This document shows positions 39,217-54,669 of a stretch of 64,000 nt of DNA, one piece after another; positions within the stretch are counted from its first letter, which is position 1; each line of letters begins with the position of its first letter. The position numbers and the translations under genes are program-made. The stretch is from Hyaloscypha bicolor E. Lineage: Eukaryota; Ascomycota; Leotiomycetes; Helotiales; Hyaloscyphaceae. The notes under the pieces are model-generated. The model was not told the origin of the DNA and made no database searches. It worked only from the letters and a program-made list of their open reading frames with translations. Where the stretch lies: positions 2,570,014 to 2,634,013 of the forward strand of contig NW_020194558.1 of the NCBI RefSeq assembly GCF_002865645.1. The letters are read 5' to 3'.

Positions 39217-42200
39217 TCAGCTCAGAACTCCTCCTCTTTCAACATCGGCACTAGCTCTCATCCTAAACCCGGTCTGCTTCTCTCTGGCAGCCGTGGCGGA
39301 TGTGGGCCTACCAGACAGCGAGAGTCGCTCCCTTATCCAATCGGTTTCGACGCTCTTTCTCGCACTTCGAGCGATACTCAAGGCATGTTCAAAGCGCAAC
39401 ATATCCAATGTAGTTTCACCAGGGCCTTCATCGAAAGGTTTTTCCCGTAACGATTTACGTCGGTTGATCCATCTCCGCAGATGTCTGAACATATTGCCGA
39501 TATCATCCAGGCTCAAGGCAATTGCAACTAGAGGGATGGACACAGCTAATCCAATTCCAAACATGTATTTGCTCACATATGCCAGCGGAATGCTGGAGTT
39601 CCCATCGAGCCGTGGGAATTCGCGAATATTGATAGCGAAAAATGCAGCAATGAAGCTCAAGGGCAAGAACACAATCGTCACAATGGTAAACACCATTATA
39701 GTTTGGCTTTGCCTGGCAGTTCCTGCCGCTTGGTCTCTCGCAAAGCGGGCTTCGAAGGCATTTGCGTGTTTTTGCTTCAAGTCCAGCATATCGGTAATTG
39801 AGTTGTAGATCCGTTCAGCCTGCCTATCCATACGATTCAAATCATTTATATGCACCTCGATGGCCTTCATCTGATCCCTAAACCGCTTTTTGACCTCTTG
39901 CTGAGATGATCGCTCATCCTTGTAAATGTCGCATATGGCTTCTTGTAGGTCGGGGAGAACGTGGAGTTGATCCTCCAGAACCTTGGCTATCATATTCAGT
40001 TCATCTCGGATGTCTTTCGTCTCTGCTAAGAGGTCTGTTTCCTCGCCAATGTCCAAGAGTTTGTCGACGAAAAGAGGGCCACGCATAAATTCTTCATATT
40101 TGAACTTCTCCTCCCGCTCTTCTCTTTCCTTGTCCTTTGCGTTCTGCCTGTCCTTGGGGTCCATGGCGTCGTGTTCGATGTACCTGGAAAATCGACTAGG
40201 ACGCCGATGATGCTGTAGCCACGCAGAGGCTTGCGCTGATGCCGCATTGAATTCTCTGAATAAAACTGTTTCCCTATCCGTCACATTGCCAATGGAAGAT
40301 TCAAACATATCGAGAAACTGGTAGTCTTCGTCCCCCATCCGATGTCGATCAAACACTCCACTACAGCGGTTTGATATGGTCATTGCGAGGTCGTACACAC
40401 TTTTGACGGGTTCCCGAGTTTTGCTGTTGATATCTTCTATGACAGTATCAAGGACATTAAGAGGGTCGTTCTTTGGCTGCTGCCAACGTTGCGGAAATGC
40501 CGTGACAATTAGACCTTTACCCAATACCCACTAAGTAACGGGGGAGTCAGCAATTGCTTAATTGGGATTGTTTCGGGAGAGGACATTGTCTTAGGAAAAT
40601 CTCATGAAACAGTCACAAATAGGAAAGGGTTTCTCCCCCAACACCTACCATCCAAAGTTGATCCACCATCACGATCTTAGGATCAACTTCTGGATCATCG
40701 TGGCTTTTGCCTTTCAATTGATATCGATACACAACTTGGTCGTGATCGCGGCTCTCGGTATCAATGTTGTGATAGAATGATTGATCTAGCGTCCGCCGTA
40801 CATGAAGAGAAACGGTCGAGGTTGCAAGGTGGGCTCGGATTAGCATTTCGTCGTATGTACTAGCTTTGCTAAGGTTACGGCAGAGTGGAGATCGAAGTGT
40901 CTCTGCACGCTTAATGGCTTCCTGCATCTCCTGGCGACGGCGGCTGCTTTCAAAGTGAAGATACGGCATGAAGGTGAAGACATTGTTCTTTGGCTGGACG
41001 GGCTCTTTCCGGGCAGGAGAGCTGGGGGAAATGGGGCGTCGATTTTCGAGAGGCTGGCTTGGTTTGCGTTGCTGATCCTTGATGGGTGTTTCTGTACCTT
41101 TTGGCGATTTATTGCCTTTAGCACTCGTCTTCTTTCCCTTCTCCTTTTGGGCCCCTTTTGCTTGGTCTTTTCCACCTTGATTTGAGGGAAATTTGAAAAG
41201 ATCAGAGCTTTCTTCGCGGAAAGTGGAGCTTCTCGAAGGGGTTTTTGGGATGCCAGTAGATTCTGATCCTCCATTAATGACAATGGTTGGAGGGCCTTGC
41301 TCTTTGGTGGGTTCTGCTGGGGTTTCTTCTGCCACCTTAACTGATCTGACTGTGCTTTGACAAAGGGGCCTCATGAAATGCGAGTGGCTCTTCTGTCCTC
41401 GGTGTTGATTACTGAAAGATCTTTCCAATGCTTTGAACCCTTCGACATCGTTCGCACCCTCTTCGATAAACGCCTTCGTGAGAAGAGCTTCAACCCATGC
41501 CATATTATTAGCCGGGAGGTCTACGTAACGGGGGAGTTAGCAATTGCTCGATTAAGGTTGTTCCGGGAGAACCGGGAAATTGTCCCGGGAGGCTATCGCG
41601 AGACAGTCAAAGATAGGAAAAGGGTTCTCCCCCAACACCTACGGATCCACCTGAAGTTTGTTGCTTTGTCATTTGGCAGCACTGTAAGTTTTGGTTTTCG
41701 GGGGTTGACTGGGTCACGGCCATAGAGCAGCTCTGCGGAACTCCGTCAGTTACCGAAACATATGAATTGGGAGGACGAATCAATCATACCATATACAGTC
41801 CATCTTTTGACTCGATTTTCGTTGCGGAAATTTCCAAAATCCACAATGGTGGTGTGGAAGCCATTTGAAGCTCCAAGTGCGTCTTCTGAAATAGTTTCCA
41901 AATGATTGAATGGAGCAAGGAGATTGACAATATCTTTACGTTTGTTCTGAGCTGCTCGTAAAAATGGAGTACTTCCAAAAGTGTCTCTTGCAGTCCGCTT
42001 GATGTCCTTCCGCTCCAAAAGGAGCCTAACGACCTCGATATGGCCCCCTTGAGCGGCAAGATGAAGTGGGGTCATCCCGTTAAGCAGTTTTGCATTGACA
42101 TCTGAACCCACCCTAATCAAGATGCGTACTATGGTTTCCGACCCAACTTCGCAAGCATTATGTAGAGGCGTCCATCCTCCATCGGACTGCTTGTTGCAAT

Positions 42201-42981
42201 CTGCTCCATATTTCAGGAGCAGCTCCACCAAGTCATCGCGGTCGTGGCTGGCTGCGAGATGTAGACTCGTTTTCTCTCGAATTTCGAGTGCGTCGATATG
42301 TGCTTTCGGTCCCTTTGGTCTCGTGAGAAGAAGCCCCGCCAGATGCAATTTCCCAGTCGCGCAAGCCCAATGCAATGGTGTCCGTCCGAGATTGTCCTGC
42401 CCTTCTGGACCATCGATTTGGATGTTTTCTACCAAGAGACGCTCAATGACAGAATCGCCCCAGTCGCATTTCTTGTCTGCGCCCAGGTTGTGTAACACAT
42501 TCCGGCCTCGATTGTCCTTTGCGTTGATGTTGGCCCCCTTGACGATCAGAGAGTTCAGAATATGCCAGTGGTTCTGCCATGCTGCAGTCATCAGGGCAGT
42601 CCTTCCCTTCTTGTCTGCCGTCTCTGTGTTTGCGCCATGCTCGAGGAGTAGCTGGACAATAGCAATATGGTTCTTTTCCACAGCTCGTAGCAGTGGCGGC
42701 AGTCTGTTTCCTGCGGCCCCATCCGGTTGCGCACCTTGTGCCAAAAGATATTGTGTTGTTCCAACTTTTCCCTTCTCCGAGCTTCGCATCAATCCGATCC
42801 GCAGGAAGTTCTCGCTCAACTGATTCTTGCTTCGCGCCGATTCGATAATCTTGCTGAGCAAGTCGACCTCGTCGCTCTCAGCTGCACGTAGGAGTTGCGG
42901 TTCGAGGCGCTCATTGTGGCTACCGTCAGAGGACCTCGACCCTGTTCGTTTCCGTGTCAATCTTTCCCCCTCGTTTGCCAT
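39217..42981 (-). CDS. Ankyrin-repeat protein fused to a CorA-like membrane domain
   Basis: Four exons on the minus strand: 42981-41790, 41732-41643, 41520-40649 and 40530-39217 (introns 57, 122 and 118 bp); 1155 residues. About eight ankyrin repeats (residues 60-375; for example GRTPLHWACATGKLHLAGLL, GWTPLHNACEVGSETIV) lead into KRWTVYELLYGRDPVNPRKP, FRWIHLPANNMAWVEAL and FTFMPYLHFE, a segment I recall as standard in fungal ankyrin-CorA proteins. The C-terminal part has a coiled-coil stretch and two membrane helices (VFTIVTIVFLPLSFIAAFFA and FGIGLAVSIPLVAIALSL). The GMN signature of true CorA Mg2+ channels is replaced by AIN, so transport of Mg2+ is doubtful. It may sense or scaffold at a membrane. 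The second and third introns are homologous to each other (separate entries). Confidence 0.88.
40531..40648 (-). repeat. Introner-like element, copy B (third intron of the ankyrin-CorA gene)
   Basis: A 118-bp intron, GTAGGT...TTAG, phase 0, between LWM and WVLGKG. Its first 18 bases are identical to those of the intron at 41521-41642, and its last 28 differ at two positions. GGGGGAG near the 5' end and CTCCCCC near the 3' end are complementary, so the ends can pair. It also carries the palindrome AGCAATTGCT. Confidence 0.8.
41521..41642 (-). repeat. Introner-like element, copy A (second intron of the ankyrin-CorA gene)
   Basis: A 122-bp intron, GTAGGT...GTAG, phase 1, inside the codon for His of RWIHLPANN. 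It aligns along its whole length with the intron at 40531-40648, with small gaps in the middle. It has the same near-terminal GGGGGAG/CTCCCCC pair and AGCAATTGCT palindrome. CGTAG occurs directly at both ends. Confidence 0.8.
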
Positions 42982-54387: not shown

Positions 54388-54481
54388 GCTATCTCATTGG
54401 CACCTTTATTCTCATACCACATGAAATTCTCTCTCTGTACATTTTGATATGTCACAATGTTCCTCAACAACTGGGGACATC

Positions 54482-54669
54482 GTCGACCTTGTCGGCATTC
54501 TCTACAATATTTAGATGTTCCGAGAAACGACAGAACAATATCGACCTTGTCGGCGTCATTTGAGGCGTTGTTTGAGAAAATTCAATGTTCTGAAAAGACA
54601 TGGAACAATTTCGGCTTTGTCGGCATTCTCTAGAAATATTTAGATGTTCCGACAGAACAAGGTCAATTT
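54482..54669 (+). repeat. Imperfect tandem repeat, three units of about 58-70 bp
   Basis: Units start at 54482, 54542 and 54612. Each begins CGACCTTGTCGGC or CGGCTTTGTCGGC and ends near GACAGAACAA or GGAACAAT. Units 1 and 3 share GTCGGCATTCTCTA and ATATTTAGATGTTCCGA. The array ends about 150 bp before the start of the giant gene. Confidence 0.8.

Follow-up and report, generated by a model that had tools for sequence, protein, structure and literature searches.

Two homologous introns of an ankyrin-CorA gene as members of an introner-like element family in a helotialean fungus

Described introner systems and the present family

The origin of new spliceosomal introns is an old open question, and the introner families of ascomycetes are described, in the part of PMC9860276 that deals with them, without marks that tell of a mechanism. 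In Dothideomycetes, among them Fulvia fulva, Dothistroma and their relatives, introner-like elements are presented in passages of PMC4457414 as dispersed, nearly identical canonical introns in unrelated genes, with cases of two copies in one gene, of insertion where other genes have ordinary introns, and of parallel gains at one spot. As quoted in a passage of PMC8469720, which cites van der Burgt 2012 and Torriani 2011, they possess inverted repeats or a stable structure and prefer AG/GY sites. The family described here, from Hyaloscypha bicolor, is likewise dispersed in unrelated genes, places two copies in one gene, appears to hit positions of ordinary introns and resembles them in its imperfect inverted repeats, whereas it is another sequence family in another class of hosts, and its preference is for a pyrimidine|purine (Y|R) step, AG being found before the intron in only 2 of 49 copies.

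Symmetrical sister stwintrons and cropped sister introns of Hypoxylaceae and Xylariaceae (Xylariales) are characterized, in parts of PMC8469720 and PMC12403724, by inverted repeats, by seamless insertion without target duplication, by near-terminal complementary elements that unite the terminal Gs, and by the absence of base bias in the bordering exons. The inverted repeats, the near-terminal complementary elements and the seamless insertion without target duplication recur in the present family, whereas its bordering exons show a strong base bias. Identity with [D1,2] stwintrons was considered and rejected, since only 6 of 49 copies have a G in front of the GT and removal of a single GT...AG unit gives an intact protein in five cases out of five.

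Introners derived from DNA transposons, known from algae and other eukaryotes, have inverted-repeat ends in part of the families, and the ascomycete families are treated as outliers without terminal inverted repeats or target site duplications (sections of PMC9860276). With these transposon-derived introners the present family shares a dispersed repeat that makes introns and, in partial form only, inverted-repeat ends, but target duplication and splice-site co-option are lacking; from the ascomycete families, as portrayed in those sections of PMC9860276, it differs in its partial terminal inverted repeats. No description of introners in Leotiomycetes, Helotiales or Hyaloscypha was found in the open-access main texts searched, where the matching titles concern two Dothideomycetes and Pleosporales (supplements may list this genome), and the same main texts, supplements aside, yielded no earlier description of the YR preference or of the lineage signal discussed below. 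The elements are of a known kind, but the family is new, and it has insertion marks not found in print. As clues to a mechanism it offers a strand-symmetric YR step, partially inverted ends with no target duplication and a tendency of the first exon base to go with the lineage of the intron.

The two introns and their relatives in the genome

The window, which is the whole 64-kb stretch of DNA that was analysed, contains no Rfam family at gathering thresholds. The host gene, encoding a protein with ankyrin repeats and a CorA domain, is located on the minus strand (39217..42981) and specifies 1155 amino acids when introns 1, 2 and 3 are removed; this protein was submitted whole to a Pfam-type domain check. 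Near full-length relatives occur as named proteins in other ascomycetes, for example in the helotialean fungi Oculimacula, Diplocarpon and Rhynchosporium, and the CorA part is 90% identical to that of Hyaloscypha variabilis. Intron 1 is placed by the gene model at about 41682-41789, several placements being possible.

Intron 3 (copy A, minus strand, 40531..40648, 118 nt, phase 0) interrupts the motif VDQLWM|WVL, and intron 2 (copy B, minus strand, 41521..41642, 122 nt, phase 1) belongs to another subfamily; the two are 872 nt apart. Positions, phases (from the gene model with both introns removed) and end-to-end homology agree with the preliminary description, as do the identity of the first 18 bases, the close similarity of the last 28, which differ at 2, and the presence in both copies of the palindrome AGCAATTGCT and of GGGGGAG/CTCCCCC near the ends. 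The 5' terminal repeat of copy A (40633..40648) consists of the donor GTAGGT followed by GTTGGGGGAG, and its 3' terminal repeat with the acceptor (40531..40546) reads CTCCCCCGTTACTTAG; the corresponding segments of copy B, also on the minus strand, are GTAGGTGTTGGGGGAG (41627..41642) and CTCCCCCGTTACGTAG (41521..41536). Used as blastn query against the whole genome, copy B retrieved copy A with E = 2.0e-20 and 78% identity, so that chance likeness of the two is excluded, and the closest relatives of copy B are the copies L010 and L011, which are about 85% identical to it. A family profile matched copy A with E 4.7e-38 and copy B with E 2.6e-31, and found only these two copies in the window, as had been reported earlier. 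Elsewhere in the window a 53-nt stretch (54455-54507) is repeated 128 bases further on (54583-54635) with 74% identity.

The genome that was searched comprises 82.0 Mb on 76 contigs, and the union of blastn and longer-pattern searches places the element at no fewer than 76 distinct places on 31 contigs. This number is a lower bound because blastn scored the best candidates only, namely the best 40 of 69 for copy A and the best 40 of 60 for copy B, all of which had E < 0.001 and which together represent at least 51 distinct places. Three longer patterns taken from different parts of the element matched 46, 46 and 40 places, against no match for a reversed control, and the 91 bases around intron 1, used as another control, matched only themselves in the genome. 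Patterns of 16 bases from the ends were rejected as copy counters on account of their high background (54 hits vs 7 in the control, and 92 vs 35), and their matches are therefore left out of the count of 76. One exact 16-base 5' end, at C71:2701396-2701411, has no 3' end listed near it and may belong to a copy that is truncated or to a longer element whose end it forms.

The hosts are unrelated and include genes for an Hsp70, a phosphoketolase, a viperin-like protein, a GH1 glycosidase, a polyketide synthase and a copper amine oxidase. Many GT-AG copies in unrelated genes are what had been named beforehand as support for an introner-like nature of the two introns, and we consider it highly probable (about 0.97) that copies A and B are members of an introner-like element family in this helotialean fungus. 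Among 54 copies the median pairwise identity is 81%, and pairs reach 99%, so some copies are young. In total 56 copies were read, of which 49 are full length (114-125 nt); these 49 are the better-matching copies and hence a non-random sample, in which copies with an ambiguous frame, such as L004, L074 and L016, were retained, and the truncated copies L005b, L013, L062, L076, L083, L085 and L087 are outside every count of 49. At L083:1446-1516 a copy with model positions 47-118 only follows CGTAGGTGTTCAG, the middle of the 5' half seemingly being lost, and L090 has two degenerate copies head to tail (1276-1391 and 1394-1516) with two bases between them.

Judged from their sequences, the 49 full-length copies look like complete, working spliceosomal introns. 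The donor is GTAGGT in 45, the end is TAG in 38 and CAG in 11, and a branch-like CTRAY site is found 8-30 nt from the end in 47; in 42 copies the last of these sites has its A at a distance of 16 nt from the end. The repeated unit spans exactly from GT to AG. Most copies are in sense orientation in open reading frames that are restored when the element is removed: the open stretch after sense splicing exceeds that of the antisense case in 40 of 49 and that of the retained element in 44 of 49, and over 56 copies the open stretch that remains after excision has, on its shorter side, a median length of 178 nt, as compared to 73 for random excisions. The joined host proteins of five copies (an SSB-type Hsp70, phosphoketolase, GH1 glycosidase, viperin and polyketide synthase) were aligned with solved structures, and in none of the five was there a gap at the joint, the nearest one being at least 7 residues away (7 in the GH1 case); insertion thus adds nothing to the message and removes nothing from it in the cases tested. 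From a further 40 junction peptides, two of which stem from truncated copies, 15 gave a Pfam match at or above the cut-off, 4 a match below it only and 21 none; the matched peptides include a copper amine oxidase, two M20-type peptidases and an alpha/beta hydrolase. Eleven of the 56 copies (A, B, L004, L020, L074, L090, L005b, L013, L062, L083 and L085) contributed no junction peptide to the Pfam and structure sets.

The terminal inverted repeats are imperfect, with a median of 11 of 16 positions alike in the 49 copies vs 5.7 in shuffles, and in ten copies the family profile also gave a match to the reverse strand at E <= 0.01, in several cases over model positions 2-117. A stable or symmetrical structure, as predicted for fungal introner-like elements, agrees with the folding energy (median -30.5 kcal/mol), which is lower than that of shuffled sequences with a mean z of -1.97 and a range of -4.1 to 0.5. 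The stem gained no support from covariation: compensatory change was absent from all 10 pairs of the consensus stem, which is therefore unproven as an RNA structure.

Insertion site and lineage signal

The elements are inserted preferentially at pyrimidine|purine steps, of which T|GG and CC|A are frequent forms. In 42 of 49 copies the exon upstream of the intron ends in T or C, whereas 24.2 would be expected in the same exons, and a YR step spans the joint in 32 vs 11.3 expected; neither number was reached in any of 20000 random draws or placements. The enriched joint dinucleotides are TG (17, P 4e-8), CA (9, P 5e-3) and TA (5, P 0.02); CG, which is likewise a YR step, is not enriched at the 49 joints (1 vs 2.8 expected). 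T|GG or CC|A occurs at 17 of 49 joints where 2.4 are expected, and the two are one site read from opposite strands; enrichment of both TG and CA is as expected if double-stranded DNA is the target. The YR excess persists when each cluster of similar copies is represented once: with clustering at 95, 90 and 85% identity (39, 24 and 13 clusters) the numbers are 27.9, 17.3 and 9.7 vs 8.8, 5.4 and 2.9 expected. The AG|G protosplice site is not preferred, since AG precedes so few of the introns.

Flanking direct repeats of 1-8 nt, including those at offsets into the element, are not enriched in the 49 copies, and a target duplication is therefore not supported. In copy B (122 nt) the CGTAG present at both ends, which had been suggested to be a trace of target duplication, provides no evidence for it either, because the usual end of the family is CCTAG, from which copy B deviates by one base, and because of this lack of enriched short repeats.

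The first downstream exon base (+1) tends to follow the lineage of the intron. On the family tree it requires 14 changes vs 24.1 in shuffles (P 0.001, the lowest value that this test can give), and the gain in likelihood from the tree is 9.2 for +1, as compared to 0.0 for -1 and at most 1.7 for 22 other positions. Agreement of this base with the three nearest copies is 52% vs 30% (P 0.0005), and weak hints are present at -1, +2 and +4 (P 0.03-0.04 on the tree; for +4 also P 0.01 among near neighbours). The global correlation between intron identity and agreement at +1 is nil (r -0.02, P 0.65), so the signal belongs to near relatives. With the CorA copy L006 left out, nearest neighbours share 0.94 flank bases on the right vs 0.46, and 0.71 on the left vs 0.54. 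It may be that a copy carries along one base of its parent site. Long homology of the flanks to the parent site was considered as well and rejected, as the memory extends over no more than about one base outside the CorA genes.

A bold and rather improbable idea is that the introner would pick its target by pairing, a variable intron base after CCTATTT being complementary to the +1 exon base (T-A, C-G, G-C/T). This variable base, alignment column 37, is the column most strongly tied to +1. Under a tree-aware null model, Watson-Crick pairs are formed in 28 of 49 copies as aligned where 13.9 are expected (P 0.004; 0.024 as the best of 27 variable columns), and when wobble is allowed the number is 34 of 49, with marginal support (P 0.038; best-of-27 0.059). 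Hand correction of three gap-shifted rows raises these counts to 30 (Watson-Crick, P 0.0038) and 37 (wobble, P 0.0098) of 49. Against the idea counts that the base in column 37 changes only about 6 times on the tree, and among the seven truncated copies outside the set, as scored by eye, pairing agrees in one, is a wobble in one, disagrees in three and is unscorable in two. Mobile group II introns spread by retrohoming, during which an intron base contacts the first base of the 3' exon, and to this contact the proposed pairing, if true, would be a parallel. It would be an analogy only, since the present element, an intron of the spliceosomal type and about 118 nt long, contains neither a ribozyme nor a reverse transcriptase.

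Possible routes of spread and the CorA genes

The mechanism that we favour, at little better than even odds, is capture in DNA of an excised, hairpin-closed intron, either as RNA or as cDNA. The intron would be spliced from the transcript of its host gene and closed into a hairpin by the imperfect inverted repeat (UAGGU/ACCUA, with GGGGGAG/CUCCCCC near the ends), by which the terminal Gs would be brought together. Genomic DNA would then capture the intron RNA or its cDNA at a pyrimidine|purine step, in many cases T|GG or CC|A, where it would constitute a new intron, the choice of site retaining some memory of the lineage at the first downstream exon base. Against this capture model speak the lack of covariation in the stem, folding z values of up to 0.5, the ambiguous frames of some of the 49 copies and the fact that CG does not share in the enrichment. 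Furthermore, DNA transposition would account for inverted ends and a strand-symmetric step as well. A non-autonomous, MITE-like DNA transposon, inserted at YR steps with no duplication of the target and having both splice sites at its very ends by chance, would explain the terminal inverted repeats, imperfect as they are, the self-complementarity of several copies over nearly their full length and the enrichment of TG together with CA. We nevertheless consider such a transposon an unlikely source, in view of the missing target duplication and of a unit that coincides with the intron to the base, its removal leaving the joined protein intact in all five cases; nor was a longer copy with a transposase noticed.

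Somewhat less probable again is a route in which the spliceosome puts the intron into another mRNA by reverse splicing, this mRNA is reverse-transcribed and the resulting cDNA recombines with the gene; according to a passage of PMC8469720, earlier authors favoured this model for fungal elements. The seamless GT-to-AG unit and the sense bias agree with it, but the protosplice context is not preferred: of the 49 introns 2 are preceded by AG and 6 by G at -1, while in 42 the last exon base is T or C. Moreover, the site preference is the same on both strands. Since pairs of copies are up to 99% alike, comparison of strains should make it possible to separate reverse splicing, DNA capture and DNA transposition.

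That gene conversion or duplication between related genes spread these introns, without an insertion process of their own, is extremely improbable. As an explanation of the whole family, gene conversion, which the preliminary description had named as the alternative, is refuted by the unrelated host genes; the pair formed by copy A and L006 is still open to it. L006, in a paralogue of the CorA gene on contig C23, is located at the same codon boundary in VDQLW as copy A, and the two are 91.9% identical over 148 nt, including 21 nt upstream and 9 nt downstream of the element; a clade of the two is not rejected (p 0.283). However, the exons beyond this short match failed to align in blastn, and copy A groups with L002, which is located in another gene (support 99/85). 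The copy in a third CorA gene, L005b (contig C73), is damaged at its 5' end and lies 1 nt upstream of the site of copy A (frame determined by eye), and a clade of A, L006 and L005b is rejected (p 0.0146). We read the CorA spot as one of repeated gain, conversion or replacement being possible alternatives.

Some CorA paralogues, by their sequence, look like they carry an ordinary intron at the position of copy A. In the paralogue at C72:542531-542907 the protein match breaks off and, after 62 nt, is taken up again in a different open frame, and an ordinary intron of about 60 nt seemingly occupies this position. Matches at five places (two on C70, and one each on C72, C1 and C22) stop at query residue 64 or 65, which is the position of the joint, and paralogues on C52, C27 and C4, the last with an in-frame TGA, matched across the site in one stretch. 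From the apparent ordinary introns at the same position it may be that this site is intron-prone, or that an older intron was replaced there. In protein-level comparisons with relatives, protein P0028 (99% identical, from a single contig of 13,457 bp) reads through the site of copy A and begins just past that of copy B, and protein P0043 (87% identical, longest contig 893,601 bp) reads through both sites. If the P0028 contig is genomic, and if its source used a gene caller that ignores introns, as we presume, intron A would be absent from a very close relative. A second gene with two copies of the element is that of L005, where they are found at 740-845 and 1501-1618, one of them being damaged at the 5' end and located in the CorA motif, the other lying upstream in an open frame.
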